From: a virus
IMG/VR virus record: IMGVR_UViG_3300032291_000320
Location: 1-24,632 of that record
Length of the DNA: 24,632 nt
Reading direction: 5' to 3' (one strand)
The notes beneath the pieces were generated by a model. It saw only the letters and a list, made by a program, of their open reading frames with translations. It was not told where the DNA came from and made no database searches. Below are positions 9,421 through 19,236 of this stretch, piece after piece (position 1 is the first letter of the stretch; the number at the start of each line of letters is the position of its first letter). The position numbers and the translations under genes are program-made.

Positions 9421-12400
9421 ATGCCCGACCGGATTTATTCTGTCCAATATAACGGGCGTATCTATGACGTTCGCGCCGCTGATACGGCTACCCCAGACCA
9501 AATCTTTTCGTATGTCCGTCAGCAAGCTGGCGGCAGTGGACCTCAAGGCCCAAAGGAAGAAGAGAACCTTCTTGAGAAAATCCCCGTTGTCGGTGGGTTG
9601 TTGGCCGGTGTTGCGGACATTCCGCTCAATGTTGTCTCTGGGTTGGCTAGTACGAGTAAGACCTTTACCGACGCGTTCGGTGCTGAGAACATGGCTTCCA
9701 ATGCACTTGAGACTGTAGCCGACTACGCAGAAAGCCTGACATCGGCTCAGTCACGCGAAGACGAGAAGACTGCCGCTGCTATCCGTAAGGCCGCAGAAGG
9801 TAAGGGTATCTGGGAAGAAGTCAAAGCCGCTGCGGAGTCGTTTACTGTTAATCCGCTTGACACGCTTGCTAGTATCACAGGCTCCGCGCTTCCATTCGCC
9901 GCTGCCGCTAGAGTAGGGGGTCCCGGACTTGCTCTTGGTCTTGGTGCTGTATCCGGTGCGGGTAACGTTAAAGGTGGTATCAGTGATGCCGTGTACGCAC
10001 GTGCGATAGAAGCTGGTGTACCCGACGCAGAAGCAAAAATCATGGCTGAAGAAGCTCAGGCTTATGGCGGTGAAAACCTTGATCAGATCGGTTTAGCCGG
10101 TGCGTTGGGTGCCATAGCCGGTGCTACAGGTTTTGATAAGGTACTTGGCCGTGCAATCGCCAAAAGTGCAGTCGAAGATGTCCTTGAGGACGTAGTTAAA
10201 AAAGAAGCCACACGCGGTCTCGCACGTCGTACGGTTACAGGGGCTGGGGCAGAAGCTATACCTGAAGCGGGTCAAGCTGGCCAAGAACGGTTTGCACAAA
10301 ATCTCGCCGAGCAACGCGCAGGATATGAGACTGATCTTATGGCTGGTGTGGCCGGTCAAGCTGCATTTGAAGGTCTAGCTGGCGGCGTCCTTGGTGGTAT
10401 CGGTGGTATACCGGGGAAGCCTACGCCGGGTCCTATTGCTACGGATGAAGAAATTGCTACGGACCTAGAGGGCTTTGAAGCTGATATCGCAGCCTCGGGT
10501 ATGCCGGAAGCGCAAGACCCCGTTATCCGTGCACGTGCTGCTGAGATTATGCAGATTGACTCTAGCGCCGACCCGATAGAGGCTATTGAGATAGCGGTAG
10601 CCGAACGAAACCGGCAAGCTGAACTTGACCAAACGGAGGAATCCGATGCTGCTGAAAGACTTGACGTTGGAGGAGGTGGGCCTGACGTTTCAGGTGTTGG
10701 CGGAGCAGATGCCGCTGCAGAAGCTGCCGGATCATCTGCAGATGTTGGACGAGGACCAGTGGGAGGAGTTGGCGTTTCTGCTGGACAACCTGTGGTTAAT
10801 GAAGGAGTTGTCGAGCCTACACTGAAGCCCGCATCAATTATCCCGCCCATCGAGGAAATCAGCCCACAAGCTAATATTGCTGAGCAGCTTGCACCTACCG
10901 TACAGCCCGCACCTGCTGCTACTGCACCGGCTGTAGAAGATGTTGCGCCTATCGCACCTGCACCTACACAGGTCGTGGAAGAAGCTGCGCCTACGCCGCT
11001 CCAACAAATCGCCAACATGAGCGATGGTGTTCAACGTGCACGGGCGATTAAAACGTATCTCACGGACCTTCAGGCTCAAGGCAGTGGGTTCGATCAGCTT
11101 CGGGTTGTACAAGATGCTATCGACGAATACCGCGCACTTACTGAGCCCCGCCGCGTTGAGCAACGTACCCGTAGGGAAGCCCGAAAAGACTTAAAGGCTG
11201 AAGAGGCTGCGCTTAACACCGTCGAAACTCAAATTGCCGAAGCCGCATCTACACCAGAACAAAAAGTTTCTGATATTGCTGGAACGCTGGAACAGAATAT
11301 TGCTGCACCTACTGAAGTAGTACCTGCTCCAGTTAGCACGCTACCACCTGAAGTACAGGCTGCGCAGGCTGAAGTTGACCAGAAAAACCCCGGCTTTGAA
11401 ATCCGTTATGACGAAGACAGCAAACGCCGCCGGTACTCGTACGGGCTCTCGGACGGCAAAATCCTATTCAGTTCGCCCAATCTCAACGCCGTTAAGAACC
11501 GTATCCTCGACGAGAAGCCGGTCCAGCCACAGAAAACTATCGACGGCGTTCCAGTCACGGTGGTGCCTGCGGGCGAAGCCAAGGGTATTAAACCACAGGT
11601 TAAGCGGGAAGCACCGCTTCAGATCGAGCCGCCGAGTATTGCTGGTAAGCTATCACCTGCTCAAGAAGAGCAGCAGAGCCTGCTCCTAGCTGAAATCGAC
11701 GAAGCCCGTAAAGCATTGCTAATTAACAACGCTGAGCGCACCGAGCTAGTGGAGATGCTTCGTACCCCGACAGGCAGAGACCTTGCGAGAAGCCGCGAGT
11801 GGACGCTTGCTACGGCAATTCAGAACGACATTAATAAGCTCAAGGACGAAGGCAGTGCACTACGGGGCGAGGAAAAAATACTCGCCAAAAAGCTAGGCCG
11901 CGATGTCCGTCTGGAACCAGAAGTAGATAAAGAAGGTAACGTCACCGAAGAACTAACTGCGGAAGAAACTGCGCTTGCGGAGAAGGTCGCGGACTTGAAG
12001 AAGCGCACCGAGACTCAGAACGACGCGTTATCAGCAGCTAAGTCTGGTATCTACAAGCGCACCCGCGAAAAGCTTGCGGAGCGTAAGGACACGCGCCAAA
12101 AACGCATCGCTCAACTTAAGCGTAACCGCGAAAAGGGTTTAATTAGCGAAGTTGTGTTTAGGCGTGAGATGGGCGAAGTGCGTCCCGAGCGTCCCATGTT
12201 CCGCAAGGGTAAGGGCAAAGCTACTGGTATCACGCTCGAAGAGCTTAACAACGCAGTCAAGGCTATCACGAGCCGCTGGGGTGCGCGTCTTGAACCTAAG
12301 ATGGTGCAGTCTGTTGCAGACCTCCCTGATGCTATCCGCAAAGAAATCGAGAAGCTTGGCCGTACCGATGCGTTTGGCTTCTATAAGGACGGCAAGGCGT

Positions 12401-15400
12401 ACCTGATTGCTGACAATATGAACGGCGTTGAGGACGTAGCGCCTACGCTCTACCATGAGGCTCTTGGGCACCTTGGTTTGCGTGAGCGATTCCGTGAAGG
12501 CTTGGATGCTGTCCTTGAAGACATCTACCGTACCAATAAGGGCGTAGCTGCACTGGCCGACAAGTTCCTTAGTGCGAACCAAGACCTATACTCGAAGGAT
12601 GAAAACCCTACTGCGCGTGCAGTAGAAGAAGTCCTTGCGTCTGCGTCGGAAGCAGGACCACTACGTGCAAGCCGGTTGGACAATTTGATGAAGTACATCA
12701 AGGACTTCGCTCGTAAGTACCTTGGCCTCGACTTGAAATTCAGCGACCGTGAGGTGCGCACCATCCTTGCTATGGCTCATGAACAAGCTCTCTCTGGTGA
12801 GGGAACTGTCATGGGTAGCTCGTCGATAATGTTTAAGACGCCTGAGCAAAATGAAGCTGACGAGAAGGTCGCAGACGCCGACGTAGCTGCGCAGGATACC
12901 ATCGAGAAACATGCTACAACAACAGCAGATCGAGTCGATATAAGAAACTCACGAAGCGTACTCGGGGGTATCGGCGACATAATCAAAGGTAAGACCCTCA
13001 AGAACTGGATGGGCGGGCTTATGAGCACGACTGCTTCGAGTGGGTGGATAGGCCGTGGAGGTCTTAAATTCATGCCGACGGATGGCGTGTTAGCTTACGC
13101 AAGAACAAAACTCTTCAAACCTACGGCAGATGCGCTTGAACAGGCTGTCGATGCTGCGGATAAAATGAATGGCACCCGCGCTGCCACACGCCGCCTGTTG
13201 AACAGGACGGCAGCCGACCTTAAGAATTACCTACTTAGTGATGCAGACCCTATAATAGTTAAAGGTGAGAAGCGGAAAGCGCTCCCCGTTGCCATGGACC
13301 ATGGCAACTACTACAACATAGACATGGTCAGCCTCATGGATGCCAAGTCTCGTGAAGATGCGTTTAAGACGGATCAAATCTGGCGTAGGTATACAAAGCT
13401 ACTGAAGGACCCTGACCTTACTCCCGCTAAGAAGAAGGAGTTCGAGGGTAAACTTGCTCAGCGGCAAGCCGAAATTGACGGTGCCTTGGATATTATAAGC
13501 AAACTATCTGCGCAGGGACGTGCTCTCTACAAGCGTATCCGCAACATGAACCGCGACATGCAACTGCGGCGTCAGTACCTGATGGACAAACGGATCGAAA
13601 ACCTACGTGATGCTGGGCTTTCCGAAGAGTCCATTTCCAAGATGGCTATTGCAATCCGGGCTGAGCAGGAGCGCCTGAACGATAAGGTTAATGCACCTAG
13701 CAAAGAAGACGCACACAAGGACTACCCTGATGTTCCGTTGGGTCTGTTCCACCGTGAATATTTTGCAAAGCGTCGCTATGGTAACTACTGGCTGCGCATC
13801 AAGAAAACTAAGTTTGGTGAACCTATCCTTAAGTTTTACGAGACCATGGCGGAGCGTGATGCCGATTGGGAAGCCGCTGCGGAAGAGTTTGGTCTCGACA
13901 AAGAAAACCAAAACCAACTGCAGATAGGTAACGACGTCGAGACGCAGTTGGGCGAAGACTTTGACGATGCAAACCCGTTCATGCAGGTGATAAACAAAAT
14001 CTCAGGTATTGATGTAGATACGTTCACGGAAGCTAAGAAAAACCAACTCCGCAACGATGTGTATCAGCTACACCTAATAAACACGCCGGAAGGGTCTGGA
14101 CGTAAGCAGTTTATTAAATCCAAGAACCGCCTTGGATGGAGTTCAGATGTCCTGCGCACGTTTGGCGCTACGGCTGAAGAGTATGCGTCGGATGTTGCTC
14201 GGTTACGCTATGTGCCTGAGATCGACCGTGCCCTTAACGCAGCTAAGAAGTCTATTGAGAGTGTCCCAGACACTGGGGAAGATGCTGAAGACCGGATTTC
14301 AATCTCCACCAGCGAGCGCTCTCTGGCCCTCGACTTTATAAAAACTATTCAAGATCGTATCAACGGTGAGATGGAGCCGCAACCAAACGGTCTCGCAAAT
14401 AAAATCGTCCCGTGGATGAACCAGCTTGCGTTCGTGTCGTTCCTAACTGCTCCGGCTACTGCACTTGTGCAGGTTACTGCTCTGCCTATGCGCGTAGCTC
14501 CTAACCTTTGGGGTAAGTACGGAATGGCAAACACAACTCGTGCCATGGGCCGGTATATGAACGTGTTCAAAAACGCCCCTAAGTTTGAGAGTAAGGCTAA
14601 AGGCGAGCGTAAGACGTTCCGTATCCCGACCCTTATGGAGTCGAACATCGTAAAGAACAGCAAGCGGCACCGTGACGCACTGACCCGTGCGACGAATGAG
14701 TACGGCCTGATTATGCCGCTGTCGGAATTTATTATGGGTGACAAGCGCACTTCGCAGGCTGGGCTAGAAAGCAATATATCGGAGATTCGTGAAAAAACCT
14801 ACGACGCTATGACGTACCTGTTCGATACGTCGGAGCAGTTGACCCGTGAAGTTGCGTTCATGGCCGCGTATGACCTTGAGTATAACAAGCTGGCCGACGC
14901 AGGTTTATCCCCTGAGGAACGGCAGAACAAGGCTGTTATCTCCGCCAAGGACACCGTGAACTACACGTTGGGTAACTATACCAACCTCAACCGGCCTCCC
15001 GTCATGAAGGGCAGTGAACTTGCCCGGGCTTTGTTCTTGTTTAAGCAGTACTCTGTTATCACCACGCGCTTCTTTGTGCAGGCAACGCGAGCTATCTTCG
15101 GTAAGAACACACCACCCGAAGAGCGCACTGCTGCTATGAAAGAAATGACAGGCGTCCTTGGTATGGGCTTCCTGATGGGCGGTGTGGTTGGCCTACCCCT
15201 CTACACACTAGGTATGATGACGCTTCAAGCGCTCCAAGACGCAACCGATGATGACGAAGATCGTAGGGAGCGGATGAAGAAGAACCCGCTAACTGCCGAC
15301 AGCGTCGAAATGCAGTTCCGCTACGAGTGGTTACCTGAGCACTTCGGTCAGCCTATGACTACTGCCGCTGATGGTAAGCAGATTAAACTAAGCGACATCA

Positions 15401-16101
15401 TCCTTAACGGTGCCGTGTCAGAAGCAACGGGCTGGAACTTCGGCTCTCGTGTGTCGCTCGACCTTGCAGGTATGTGGTTCCGTGCACCTAAGGACGCAGA
15501 CACGTGGGGCCAGACAGTCAACAACGCGCTGGTGGAGAACATCCCCGGTGCGTCCGCATCGCTCAATATTGTGTCCATGGGTGAAGAGATTGCCAAGGGC
15601 AACGTGCTTAAAGGTCTTGAGGTTGGTCTTCCAGCTATGGTCCGTGCACCGTTCAAGGCGTACCGGCTCAGCGAAGAGGGTGTGCGCACCCAGACAGAGA
15701 AGATTAAACTGAAGGCGGAAGAGCTAAGCAACGCCGAGATCATTGGTGCCGCACTAGGGTTTAACCCCACGCAGGTTGCAAAGGTGCAGCAGCAGAACCG
15801 TGACGTGCTGAACAGCACCAAGGACCTACAAACGCAGAAGAGCGATTTGCTCGGTGCTTACAAACGAGCGGTGCGCCGTATCCAGAACGGTGATGCAGAC
15901 GGGCAAGAGAAAGCACGTGAAGCGGTCAACGATATCATGGACTTCAATAAGAAGATTGGGAATCCGTACTACGGCATCTCCTACGCCAATATGTACAGGT
16001 CGTTGACTGGCTCTGCCGCAGAAGAAAAGTACGACATACAGGGTATGGGTCTTAACCAGATCGACTCGTACTACGCTGACCAGTTGCTTAACCCGAAATA
16101 A
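9421..16101 (+). CDS. Giant polyvalent virion protein with HEALGH metallopeptidase-like motif
   Basis: This 2226-aa protein is likely packaged and ejected with the genome, comparable in position and size to large internal virion proteins of podoviruses. The start ATG follows GAGGTAAG. Residues 1-35 form a small module (YSVQYNGRIYDVRAADTATP) like those at the front of polyvalent and gp16-type proteins. Gly/Ala-rich hydrophobic helices lie at ~55-80, 145-180 and 215-325. An acidic, Pro/Ala-rich linker covers ~380-530 and Lys/Glu-rich coiled-coil-like sequence ~560-920. APTLYHEALGHLGLRERF has its H-E-A-L-G-H at 1012-1017. Near the C-terminus are two more hydrophobic regions (~1661-1695, ~1910-1940) flanking RPPVMKGSELARALFLFKQY, resembling the PLxRFG/LPD38-type regions of large phage polyvalent proteins. 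The peptidase activity is unproven because the His spacing is one residue longer than HExxH. The frame is unbroken throughout. Confidence 0.85.
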   Translation: MPDRIYSVQYNGRIYDVRAADTATPDQIFSYVRQQAGGSGPQGPKEEENLLEKIPVVGGLLAGVADIPLNVVSGLASTSKTFTDAFGAENMASNALETVADYAESLTSAQSREDEKTAAAIRKAAEGKGIWEEVKAAAESFTVNPLDTLASITGSALPFAAAARVGGPGLALGLGAVSGAGNVKGGISDAVYARAIEAGVPDAEAKIMAEEAQAYGGENLDQIGLAGALGAIAGATGFDKVLGRAIAKSAVEDVLEDVVKKEATRGLARRTVTGAGAEAIPEAGQAGQERFAQNLAEQRAGYETDLMAGVAGQAAFEGLAGGVLGGIGGIPGKPTPGPIATDEEIATDLEGFEADIAASGMPEAQDPVIRARAAEIMQIDSSADPIEAIEIAVAERNRQAELDQTEESDAAERLDVGGGGPDVSGVGGADAAAEAAGSSADVGRGPVGGVGVSAGQPVVNEGVVEPTLKPASIIPPIEEISPQANIAEQLAPTVQPAPAATAPAVEDVAPIAPAPTQVVEEAAPTPLQQIANMSDGVQRARAIKTYLTDLQAQGSGFDQLRVVQDAIDEYRALTEPRRVEQRTRREARKDLKAEEAALNTVETQIAEAASTPEQKVSDIAGTLEQNIAAPTEVVPAPVSTLPPEVQAAQAEVDQKNPGFEIRYDEDSKRRRYSYGLSDGKILFSSPNLNAVKNRILDEKPVQPQKTIDGVPVTVVPAGEAKGIKPQVKREAPLQIEPPSIAGKLSPAQEEQQSLLLAEIDEARKALLINNAERTELVEMLRTPTGRDLARSREWTLATAIQNDINKLKDEGSALRGEEKILAKKLGRDVRLEPEVDKEGNVTEELTAEETALAEKVADLKKRTETQNDALSAAKSGIYKRTREKLAERKDTRQKRIAQLKRNREKGLISEVVFRREMGEVRPERPMFRKGKGKATGITLEELNNAVKAITSRWGARLEPKMVQSVADLPDAIRKEIEKLGRTDAFGFYKDGKAYLIADNMNGVEDVAPTLYHEALGHLGLRERFREGLDAVLEDIYRTNKGVAALADKFLSANQDLYSKDENPTARAVEEVLASASEAGPLRASRLDNLMKYIKDFARKYLGLDLKFSDREVRTILAMAHEQALSGEGTVMGSSSIMFKTPEQNEADEKVADADVAAQDTIEKHATTTADRVDIRNSRSVLGGIGDIIKGKTLKNWMGGLMSTTASSGWIGRGGLKFMPTDGVLAYARTKLFKPTADALEQAVDAADKMNGTRAATRRLLNRTAADLKNYLLSDADPIIVKGEKRKALPVAMDHGNYYNIDMVSLMDAKSREDAFKTDQIWRRYTKLLKDPDLTPAKKKEFEGKLAQRQAEIDGALDIISKLSAQGRALYKRIRNMNRDMQLRRQYLMDKRIENLRDAGLSEESISKMAIAIRAEQERLNDKVNAPSKEDAHKDYPDVPLGLFHREYFAKRRYGNYWLRIKKTKFGEPILKFYETMAERDADWEAAAEEFGLDKENQNQLQIGNDVETQLGEDFDDANPFMQVINKISGIDVDTFTEAKKNQLRNDVYQLHLINTPEGSGRKQFIKSKNRLGWSSDVLRTFGATAEEYASDVARLRYVPEIDRALNAAKKSIESVPDTGEDAEDRISISTSERSLALDFIKTIQDRINGEMEPQPNGLANKIVPWMNQLAFVSFLTAPATALVQVTALPMRVAPNLWGKYGMANTTRAMGRYMNVFKNAPKFESKAKGERKTFRIPTLMESNIVKNSKRHRDALTRATNEYGLIMPLSEFIMGDKRTSQAGLESNISEIREKTYDAMTYLFDTSEQLTREVAFMAAYDLEYNKLADAGLSPEERQNKAVISAKDTVNYTLGNYTNLNRPPVMKGSELARALFLFKQYSVITTRFFVQATRAIFGKNTPPEERTAAMKEMTGVLGMGFLMGGVVGLPLYTLGMMTLQALQDATDDDEDRRERMKKNPLTADSVEMQFRYEWLPEHFGQPMTTAADGKQIKLSDIILNGAVSEATGWNFGSRVSLDLAGMWFRAPKDADTWGQTVNNALVENIPGASASLNIVSMGEEIAKGNVLKGLEVGLPAMVRAPFKAYRLSEEGVRTQTEKIKLKAEELSNAEIIGAALGFNPTQVAKVQQQNRDVLNSTKDLQTQKSDLLGAYKRAVRRIQNGDADGQEKAREAVNDIMDFNKKIGNPYYGISYANMYRSLTGSAAEEKYDIQGMGLNQIDSYYADQLLNPK
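10635..10640 (+). promoter_or_regulatory. Internal Shine-Dalgarno site for the embedded ORF
   Basis: GGAGGA lies 5 nt before the ATG at 10646, inside the giant polyvalent gene and out of its frame. The match and spacing are as good as at the clearest gene starts in this window. In the main frame these bases encode Thr-Glu-Glu, so the site may also be there by chance. Confidence 0.55.
10646..10825 (+). CDS. Candidate embedded gene: 59-aa Leu-rich acidic protein overlapping the polyvalent gene
   Basis: This ORF lies wholly inside the 2226-aa gene in the +1 frame. It starts at ATG with GGAGGA 5 nt upstream; an in-frame TTG at 10625 would add 7 residues but lacks that site. The product looks like a folded helical protein, with LTLEEVGLTFQVLAEQMPLQ, then LPDHLQMLDEDQWEELAFLL and a terminal KELSSLH. 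It has 17 Leu, 2 Trp, 12 Asp/Glu and only 3 Lys. No membrane segment or known motif is seen. The main frame here encodes a Gly/Ala/Val-rich linker (DVGGGGPDVSGVGG and similar), the kind of permissive sequence where overprinting is tolerated. Caution: G-rich first codon positions of the main frame would themselves give many CTG, GAG and CAG codons in this frame. The function is unknown. Confidence 0.5.
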   Translation: MLLKDLTLEEVGLTFQVLAEQMPLQKLPDHLQMLDEDQWEELAFLLDNLWLMKELSSLH

Positions 16102-16183: not shown

Positions 16184-16378
16184 TCACAAACGCCAAACAC
16201 GTAAACCCCTAATTCCATCTTGGACCGTCACTTTTATCAACACCTTGAGTCTAAGGCGCTTAGTGACCACAAGCAGTTGTGTTTTTGCTGCTCGGGGGTC
16301 TAGGCATGGGATGAAGATATCCGTGCCTTTCTTGAAGGCTTTCCAGTTCACATCGTAGGTGACACCCTCAATCTGCAT
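16184..16378 (-). CDS. Small basic protein, unknown function, overlapping the primase gene end
   Basis: This 64-aa protein starts at an ATG (16378-16376) inside the 3' end of the primase/helicase gene, giving an 11-bp overlap, with GGAG 9 nt upstream; a longer in-frame ORF runs back to 16441 but lies wholly in the primase gene. The product (MQIEGVTYDVNWKAFKKGTD, then IFIPCLDP and a basic C-terminus ending RGLRVWRL) looks like a compact beta-strand protein with many Lys and Arg. That suggests nucleic-acid or protein binding, but no named family is recognised. It is the last gene before the operon terminator. Coupled translation with the primase suggests a replication-associated role (inference). 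Confidence 0.75.
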   Translation of the reverse strand: MQIEGVTYDVNWKAFKKGTDIFIPCLDPRAAKTQLLVVTKRLRLKVLIKVTVQDGIRGLRVWRL

Positions 16379-19205
16379 CCTCAGTCTCCGGCACGAAGAC
16401 ACCCATATCAAGGAAGTCGCTGACGCTGGTATCAAACTCAATGCAGTATACGGACGGGGTCGTCATCGCCATACCCTTGGACAGACGCTTGTTGCCGGTG
16501 TCGATATAAGCCCCACACTTCTTAAAGTCTTTGATGACTTCTTTGTAGTTTATCTGCGACTTGATGCACTCTTCGCGGAAGTGCTTATGATCCACAAACA
16601 GGCGTTTAGTATCCGGCTCAAAGCGAGCATAGAGCGCACCTTTGGGTTCGTGGAGAGGTGAAGCTGCCAAGTTAGACCTACTATCTATCCCGTCATCAAC
16701 GACAAGGATGTTATGGATATTGCGGTTGAGGTAGTCACCCAGTATCGCCATCGTAGATATACTAGGTGCTTCTACATCCTGCCGTGTCTCAAGGACCATG
16801 CTCGTTGCCCACGCATAGATGCGCTGCATGTCCCAGTTGATTATCTTGAGACGACGAGCAATCATACCCCCAGTTAGGTTAGCTGCTAGTTTGGCGGACC
16901 AGAAGCGTTCCCGCTGTGTCAGCTTCAATTCACGGTCAACCTTTTCCTGCACAACCTTGAGAGTACGCTTAACGTCTTCGAGATTGTTTATCACCCACTG
17001 GATGTAGATAGGCCCAGCATGGCCGTAGTTTTCAAGCAGTTGGAAGTCGAACATCTGCTTTGCGTAGTCGGTCGGGATAGCGTCGGTGGTCTCAATCTTA
17101 TACTCTAGTAGGCGCATCATCTCGCCGTCGGGATGATTTTTATGCAGACCCAGCTTTTCGTAGATAGAAGCGTTGGACGAGCAAAGACTGATCGTCTGCC
17201 ATGTCGTGTTGTTCGTGCGTAGCTCGTTGGACGATGCCTTCATACGGTGTTTGCCGCGCCCTTGGCTCATGTTGTAAGCCATTTCGGACAGCCCCGCCCC
17301 TGTCATGTTGGTAACTTCGTCCACACAGAACGGTAGGTTATTATGCACACCCAACTGCTGCGTCTTAGCGTTGGCAGTATCCCCCTTGATTGCACATAGG
17401 TCCTTGGGGTGGCCGTATATGCTATTCGTTGCGTGTAATAGAGTGGTCTTACCCGTACCCGATGTAGAGTGGATTACGTTGATGATCGCACCCGACTGCC
17501 CTGTAAACTTGAAGAGCGGTGCCCCGAACGCAGTCAGCACAGCAAACGCATGCGGCTCTAACCCCGGACGTCCGTACAAGTTAATAACTTCCTGCCACTT
17601 CTCATAAGAACCTTCCGCGTGTAAATGCGTCGCAAGGTCACGTGTTGCTGATGATGGGGGGCTATGGAATATACCGTCGAAGCAAACCTCGCGGTCCCCG
17701 ATGATAAACTTGGTATCGTTATCAGCCCAGCCAAACTGCATACGCATAAGCTCTGCCTTCCTTTTATATTGTATCGCCTTGAGTGACATGGTCACGAACA
17801 AGATGATTTGTTTGAACTGCTTCTCGGTGGCAGCTACGCCCTTCGAAGCCAGCATCTTACGAAGCTCGGCTGCATCCCCCACTGCTTGTTTCTGCGTGAT
17901 GATAAACTCACGCACACCCTCTTTGGGGAGGTGCAACCGCATGACCAAGACGTCACCCTCTTTGGGGTCAGTCATAGTCTTCACCAGATATAAGTCGTGC
18001 TCATAGACAAGGACAGGTGCCTCCTCGTCCTTTTCTGGCTTCAAGTAGATGCCGCCCTTCTTACCCCGTGTGAACGGGAACGGGTATTCGGGTATACGGT
18101 AGTCGATTGGCACATCGTCTTCACCCCCTTCAGGGACGACGTAGTTTCCATCTTCCGTCTCAGCTTCTGCTACTTCCCTACCCAGCACGATGGGGTTCTT
18201 AACCTTACCCAAGTAGGGGCAGCCGTAACAGCCCCCGGGATTATTGCGCTCAAAGGTCGCACAGTTATGCGGACCTGTGATATGCTTGGTCTTATCCACC
18301 GCCCTGTCTGGGTCGTAGTCCGGATGCCCGTGGGACATCTTCTGTATCGCAGTGTCCCTGTCTACGCAGAACTTGGCAATCGACAACGCGTCGAACCACC
18401 GGACTTCTGGTAGCGAAGCTCGTTCCTCGTAGGCAGCTAACAACTGCTGGCACCCGTCACCCTTTGCACTACGCCGCATGATCTTGGAGAAACGGGATAC
18501 GTTGTTATCCTGTAGCTTCTCAAAGATGTTGCTCTTGCGCCGCTCAGGCACAACCATTTCACGCAGGGCTTCAACCCCAAGCGCCGTACGGAACTCTTCG
18601 AACTCTACCGGAGCAGCGTCAGAAATCACCGTCACCTGCTTAGGTGGGTTATCCTTAAAGTTTAATGTGCCCGGTATACGCAGGATACGCGCTACCTCGA
18701 ACACGGCGGGGTCTACATAAAAGTTATGCGTGACGCATAATGCAGAAAGTCTGTTTGCTACGGGTTCCCACTCTTGGCGGGTTATGTCTTGGGTCAGTGG
18801 CCAGTATGCGTGTATACCGCGTCCTGAGTTAACGATGAGGGGTATTGGCAACCCAACCGTTTTGCAGAACTGCCGAAGTGCGGCTAACCCTGCGTCTTGG
18901 TCGATGTAGCCATCTGGCCTCCCCGTCTTCTCGCTGACCACGGCCTTTGCTTCACCGCAGTCAATGTCCACCCAGAACGACCGGAGAGCTTTGACGTTCT
19001 CCTTCTGCCTGTTCTGTTCCGTCTCATATTTGGCGACACCAAAAAATACGTTGCGACCTTCCGCAACATACTTCTCTGTAAGCGTGTCTACCTCTTCCCT
19101 AGTAGCTACAAGTTTTTGCCTTACGTCACGTTCACCCTTGATACCGAGTACGGCAAACCAACCATCAGCTGGCTGCACGACACTCATTAGGTCTACGTGA
19201 TTCAT
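16368..19205 (-). CDS. AEP-type primase fused to a DUF927-like helicase
   Basis: This 945-aa protein (from ATG 19205) is a replicative primase/helicase. The N-terminal half has archaeo-eukaryotic primase (PrimPol-type) signatures: FWVDIDCG with Asp80/Asp82, SGRGIHAYW at 127-135, and DPAVFEVARILRIPGTLNFK near 165-185. Next is a zinc-type cluster, HNCATFERNNPGGCYGCPYLG, with Cys315, Cys326 and Cys329. The C-terminal half is a P-loop ATPase: STSGTGKTTLLHATNSIYGH with Lys586 and Thr587, then FCVDEVTNM with Asp629-Glu630. This pattern resembles DUF927/superfamily 3-like helicases. It would make primers and unwind DNA at the fork. A GTG at 19217 would add four residues; neither start has a strong ribosome site, and I prefer ATG because the 12-bp dyad then lies outside the gene. 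The upstream neighbour is an XRE-type regulator. No DNA polymerase is in the window. Confidence 0.9.
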   Translation of the reverse strand: MNHVDLMSVVQPADGWFAVLGIKGERDVRQKLVATREEVDTLTEKYVAEGRNVFFGVAKYETEQNRQKENVKALRSFWVDIDCGEAKAVVSEKTGRPDGYIDQDAGLAALRQFCKTVGLPIPLIVNSGRGIHAYWPLTQDITRQEWEPVANRLSALCVTHNFYVDPAVFEVARILRIPGTLNFKDNPPKQVTVISDAAPVEFEEFRTALGVEALREMVVPERRKSNIFEKLQDNNVSRFSKIMRRSAKGDGCQQLLAAYEERASLPEVRWFDALSIAKFCVDRDTAIQKMSHGHPDYDPDRAVDKTKHITGPHNCATFERNNPGGCYGCPYLGKVKNPIVLGREVAEAETEDGNYVVPEGGEDDVPIDYRIPEYPFPFTRGKKGGIYLKPEKDEEAPVLVYEHDLYLVKTMTDPKEGDVLVMRLHLPKEGVREFIITQKQAVGDAAELRKMLASKGVAATEKQFKQIILFVTMSLKAIQYKRKAELMRMQFGWADNDTKFIIGDREVCFDGIFHSPPSSATRDLATHLHAEGSYEKWQEVINLYGRPGLEPHAFAVLTAFGAPLFKFTGQSGAIINVIHSTSGTGKTTLLHATNSIYGHPKDLCAIKGDTANAKTQQLGVHNNLPFCVDEVTNMTGAGLSEMAYNMSQGRGKHRMKASSNELRTNNTTWQTISLCSSNASIYEKLGLHKNHPDGEMMRLLEYKIETTDAIPTDYAKQMFDFQLLENYGHAGPIYIQWVINNLEDVKRTLKVVQEKVDRELKLTQRERFWSAKLAANLTGGMIARRLKIINWDMQRIYAWATSMVLETRQDVEAPSISTMAILGDYLNRNIHNILVVDDGIDSRSNLAASPLHEPKGALYARFEPDTKRLFVDHKHFREECIKSQINYKEVIKDFKKCGAYIDTGNKRLSKGMAMTTPSVYCIEFDTSVSDFLDMGVFVPETEDAD

Positions 19206-19208
19206 TGT

Positions 19209-19236
19209 ATAGTCCACTATCGCAGGAAATACCTGC
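19209..19236. promoter_or_regulatory. Two adjacent dyads before the primase gene (possible operator)
   Basis: ATAGT-CC-ACTAT (19209-19220) is a perfect 12-bp inverted repeat, and GCAGG-AAATA-CCTGC (19222-19236) is a second 5-bp-arm dyad one base away. Both lie in the 54-bp gap between the XRE-type gene and the primase gene, the longest gap within this operon. They could be an operator for the neighbouring HTH protein, an RNA hairpin masking the primase start, or chance; only the symmetry is seen. Confidence 0.4.

Follow-up and report, generated by a model that had tools for sequence, protein, structure and literature searches.

The locus examined here raises the question of whether a short open reading frame (ORF) lying wholly within a giant phage gene is itself a gene, or a by-product of the composition of the gene that contains it. 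The window, namely the entire 24,632-nucleotide stretch of viral DNA subjected to analysis, carries a polyvalent gene within which a first-pass annotation had claimed a 59-residue +1 ORF, with an ATG at 10646 and a Shine-Dalgarno (SD) sequence upstream. Inspection of the sequence and an ORF check confirmed the presence of these elements: the frame extends on the plus strand to TGA 10823–10825, its translation being MLLKDLTLEEVGLTFQVLAEQMPLQKLPDHLQMLDEDQWEELAFLLDNLWLMKELSSLH followed by the stop (with LPDHLQMLDEDQWEELAFLLDNLWLMK as an example peptide from the 59-aa protein), and its start is preceded by ACGGAGGAATCCG-ATG, in which the end of the GGAGG lies 6 nt from the ATG (Table 1). Judged by the sequence comparisons described below, 10646–10825 is very probably a real nested protein-coding gene, with a predicted product, in an uncultured phage.

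Table 1. Coordinates of the nested gene and of the relevant parts of its host gene in the window.
Feature	Position	Strand	Remarks
Host gene, 2226-aa polyvalent protein	9421..16101	+	ATG start; C-terminal part matches NF032893 (PLxRFG domain) and phrog_10089 (DarB-like antirestriction)
Conserved Gly/Ala-rich N-terminal domain of host protein	9553..10389	+	all nested genes found lie in the linker after it
Variable low-complexity linker of host protein, carrying the nested gene	10390..11100	+	limits approximate
Shine-Dalgarno GGAGG, 6 nt before ATG	10635..10639	+	SD type kept in L017, L008, L006, L011, L023, L018 and L069
Nested overlapping gene, 59 aa + stop TGA	10646..10825	+	+1 relative to polyvalent gene

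The host gene and the probability of an open +1 frame by chance

The host protein belongs with the PLxRFG proteins, as indicated by its match to NF032893 over residues 1447–2195 (253.9 bits as against a curated cut-off of 100). Genes located 5' of the polyvalent gene include tail-fibre and structural genes, a weak DNA-ejection match and a transglycosylase, thereby placing it at the end of an apparent late operon. Two other features of the region were recorded: a zinc-peptidase-like HExxH motif (HEALGH, 12454–12471, polyvalent residue 1012), seen by eye where no family match occurs, and a convergent gene following the late operon (16368–19217, minus strand, 949 aa) with matches to DUF927 (Pfam, 8.9e-27) and to primase/helicase PHROGs.

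Across the nested ORF, the main frame encodes a linker of Gly, Ala, Val, Asp and Pro. The first-pass annotation had cautioned that codon bias in the main frame might be partly responsible for the look of the +1 frame. On a chance reading, the combination of that bias with G-first codons would give rise to an open, Leu/Glu/Gln-like frame from which no product is made. GNN codons abound in the main frame and become NNG codons in +1, and when codons were redrawn synonymously with the main protein held fixed, the +1 frame remained free of stops in 7.5% of the window draws and in 16–27% of those for three relatives; openness alone, expected in some 8–27% of synonymous recodings, is thus weak evidence. 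Under the same null, however, a maximum of 32 of the 59 residues in relatives were identical to the window peptide, as against the 49–52 observed, and bias alone likewise fails to explain third positions frozen inside the ORF only, the low dN/dS of the nested frame, or the repetition of the pattern in four clades. In our view a chance open frame is refuted by these comparisons, and we regard it as scarcely credible.

Substitution patterns in close relatives

Close relatives were obtained by tblastn of the nested peptide against IMG/VR contigs. In three of them, the nested protein was 83–88% identical to that of the window and the main protein, drifting over the same codons, 62–68%. When a second frame is read in +1, its second codon position falls on the third position of the main frame, and main third-position differences from the window amounted to 1 of 60 codons within the ORF as against 27% in the N-terminal flank for L017, 3 of 60 as against 30% for L008, and 5 of 60 as against 56% for L006 (Fisher p 1e-6 to 5e-5 for the three, non-independent, window pairs). 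Main positions 1 and 2 within the ORF diverged to an extent similar to or above that of the flanks, and nested-frame dN/dS values were 0.10–0.24 in six pairs, again non-independent.

The limits of this pattern coincided with those of the proposed gene. Main positions 1, 2 and 3 differed by 0.43, 0.37 and 0.60 at 30–15 nt upstream, and by 0.11, 0 and 0.61 at 15–30 nt past the stop; inside the ORF, the third main position differed by 0–0.10 for 150 nt and by 0.19 in the final block. The constraint thus extends from the SD to the nested stop, with both frames diverging freely 5' of the SD. An overprinted gene is expected to show purifying selection in its own frame and, in the frame of its host gene, fewer synonymous changes; both were found, and the host frame proved to be coding and conserved on either side of the nested ORF. 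Both comparative checks proposed in the first-pass annotation gave the result expected of a gene: the open frame, ATG and SD were kept in relatives, and main-frame synonymous change collapsed within the nested ORF only. Coding selection on the nested frame, with conservation of its start, SD and stop, is what comparison of the sequences demonstrates.

Main-frame dN/dS values exceeded 1 (2–9.5). Positive selection on the main frame was considered as a cause and rejected, since values of this size follow from the freezing of synonymous sites; PMC2601044 reports overlapping genes with inordinate apparent positive selection. Of the two frames compared here, the nested one is the strongly constrained and the main one the tolerant partner.

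Conservation of the DNA for a non-coding cause, such as an RNA structure or a protein-binding site, could also freeze main-frame synonymous sites. Changes within the ORF were, however, unevenly distributed, following the +1 codon phase with fewest at nested second positions, and the nested peptide can be aligned in relatives whose linkers cannot; a cause of this kind is accordingly most improbable.

A wider family of nested homologues

An iterated profile search across all fetched loci, seeded with seven sequences, reached L018, L048, L052, L054, L055, L069 and L073 and, marginally, L068 and L067, with E values of 0.57 and 11 after iteration. Sixteen distinct nested versions were distinguished, with identities down to 20–40%, and all 16 were in +1 of the host frame. 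L34 and W39 (numbering of the window peptide) were invariant within the family and set in a hydrophobic pattern, and the peptide remained alignable even where relatives had unalignable linkers.

In the pairs L048–L052, L067–L068 and L069–L073, the strongest third-position collapse in the host gene was the nested ORF itself, which backs these copies independently of their similarity to the window; in total, the substitution pattern of the host gene marks the nested ORF in four clades. L067/L068 are regarded as marginal members, included on the combination of a marginal first match, position and their own substitution pattern. As judged from its occurrence in several deep clades of the host N-terminal domain, the nested gene is old. 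The same scan gave no second nested gene in the other late genes of the window, nor did it show an alternative one in L039/L060 or L058/L070, two clades that possess the N-terminal domain and no detectable nested gene.

A further feature of the family concerned the 3' end: the last residue before the stop is His in 14 of the 16 nested proteins (as LH, TH, VH or IH) and Gln in the other two, and in the same fourteen the main frame has a Leu codon at the nested His end (10820–10825 in the window, and the 3' ends of the homologues).

The position of every copy in +1 of the main frame behind the same N-terminal domain would also suit a programmed +1 frameshift, whereby an N-terminal domain product of ~410 aa would carry the 59 residues as its tail and no free small protein would be made. 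L055 and L068, which have long upstream +1 open stretches without a clear start and SD, are consistent with such an arrangement; L019, L054 and L073 have weaker or ambiguous starts and SDs. Against a frameshift, 11 of the 16 copies possess an ATG or GTG start with an SD of GGAGG, AGGAG or GAGGA type at 5–9 nt, both frames diverge freely upstream of the SD with conservation starting only there, and visual inspection of the printed sequences revealed no conserved slippery site. We consider a frameshift improbable, if less so than either a chance frame or a non-coding cause. Because conservation begins at the SD, internal initiation is the favoured route to the nested product: most likely, ribosomes would start at the internal ATG by way of the GGAGGA Shine-Dalgarno on a late polycistronic mRNA to yield a 59-aa helical protein late in infection, while others would read through in the main frame to produce the giant protein.

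Association with the host N-terminal domain

Every nested copy was located in the linker behind the same Gly/Ala-rich N-terminal domain. In L018, L023, L054, L067 and L068, the host protein matches that of the window in its N-terminal part only, with the nested gene present, a comparison indicating that the gene accompanies the N-terminal domain even where the remainder of the protein differs; L069 and L073, truncated at contig ends, are uninformative on this point. In L023, the nested gene ends at codon 557, and the part from residue 565 (550 in some matches) matches giant proteins, some of them LPD5-annotated.

The polyvalent gene of L023 (467–4894) resembles that of the window solely in its N-terminal domain and nested gene, and what follows the nested gene matches giant genes of Vibrio phages and E. 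coli podoprophage-type records. A mosaic junction adjoins the nested gene. Between L018 and the window, the N-terminal domains were 74% identical and the nested proteins 29%, the L018 linker being longer and unrelated, a pattern that suggests that linker and nested gene have been exchanged together or turn over rapidly.

The nested gene was patchily distributed on the tree of the N-terminal domain, requiring at least 4–6 changes, and the whole records of several relatives with the domain were without it; with many such relatives, the domain evidently does not strictly require the nested gene. Nested-protein and N-domain identities were weakly correlated (rho 0.28). At the sensitivity used, the N-terminal domain was not found in the records of the phage collection.

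Properties and possible function of the nested protein

The AF2 model of the nested protein, of good confidence (pLDDT 88, pTM 0.68), predicts helices at residues 8–18, 29–32 and 36–58, and the calculated pI was 4.1–5.6 in 15 of the 16 members, the exception being L048 (pI 9.1). Fold searches with two AF2 models, PDB included, revealed no significant structural neighbour. Family profiles gave best E values of 0.06 (PHROG), 0.02 (Pfam) and 0.014 (NCBIfam), all far below the cut-off where one exists; the last, to the NCBIfam model PRK02793 (15.5 bits as against a cut-off of 103), was at chance level, and the remaining weak matches to Pfam, PHROGs and NCBIfam were likewise rejected as chance.

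The free-standing homologue that the first-pass annotation had proposed to seek did not emerge: none turned up in 50,697 phage records when three family members served as tblastn queries, a profile search of 29 whole phage records recovered nested copies only, and neither four cultured phages with DarB-like giant genes nor bacterial and archaeal genomes contained a homologue. No description of the family was found in open-access papers. On this sequence evidence, we file the nested protein as a putative new family, and same-strand nested genes themselves as a known kind.

With a product that would be small, acidic and helical, share its mRNA with the giant protein and be tied to one domain of it, a role as chaperone or assembly partner suggests itself. 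Since the nested gene follows the N-terminal domain even when C-terminal modules differ, our guess, a tentative one, is that its product serves the Gly/Ala-rich N-terminal domain as a small acidic partner or chaperone and might, for example, keep it soluble or load it into the virion. The main rival, about as likely and itself only a possibility, is that the nested gene is real and the target of its product is the host cell, in anti-defence or takeover, and not the polyvalent protein. Activity of this sort is common among small acidic phage proteins, and the patchy presence of the gene on the tree fits an accessory role; its location in a late structural operon, and its retention with the N-terminal domain as other modules change, count against an effector. 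The fuller form of the chaperone proposal, namely an undescribed helical family existing only nested in +1 in polyvalent linkers, bound to the N-terminal domain across module changes and acting as its chaperone or loading factor, must be considered doubtful as a whole.

Comparison with known systems

Same-strand nesting with internal initiation is exemplified by gene E inside gene D of phiX174. The present gene is likewise nested on the same strand with inferred internal initiation, but phiX174 has a small ssDNA genome, whereas the window is of tailed dsDNA phage type, and there is no sequence relation between them. In lambda and similar phages, Rz1 is a small gene wholly embedded on the same strand, in +1, in a larger late gene and with its own start, an arrangement shared by the nested gene described here. 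Unlike Rz1 of the Rz/Rz1 spanin system (PMC6139136, PMC5295617), however, the nested peptide of the window is devoid of Cys, and hence of a lipobox Cys, has a helical model and no family match, and lies in a 2226-aa PLxRFG polyvalent gene rather than an i-spanin gene; an embedded o-spanin of Rz1 type, which would be a lipoprotein with a lipobox Cys signal in an i-spanin gene, was rejected on these grounds.

The host gene itself resembles the polyvalent proteins of PLxRFG/DarB-like type described by Iyer et al. 2017 (PMC5512222) in being a multi-module giant phage protein with an NF032893 match. Overlap, frameshift and linker were sought by word search in that paper and do not occur in it, and nested genes within polyvalent proteins thus apparently form no part of its account.

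Implications

Fully nested genes with deep comparative support are few in large dsDNA phages, and gene callers drop them. With the nested frame conserved, the linker of the giant protein would be whatever the nested codons permit, and its Gly/Ala/Val composition in this stretch may in part be a by-product of the hidden gene. The third-position freeze in the linker offers a clear signature by which similar genes could be found in other giant phage genes. The nested protein is a testable candidate helper for polyvalent proteins and, if such a role were true, a single stretch of mRNA would give rise to the helper as well as to the giant protein, itself probably ejected.
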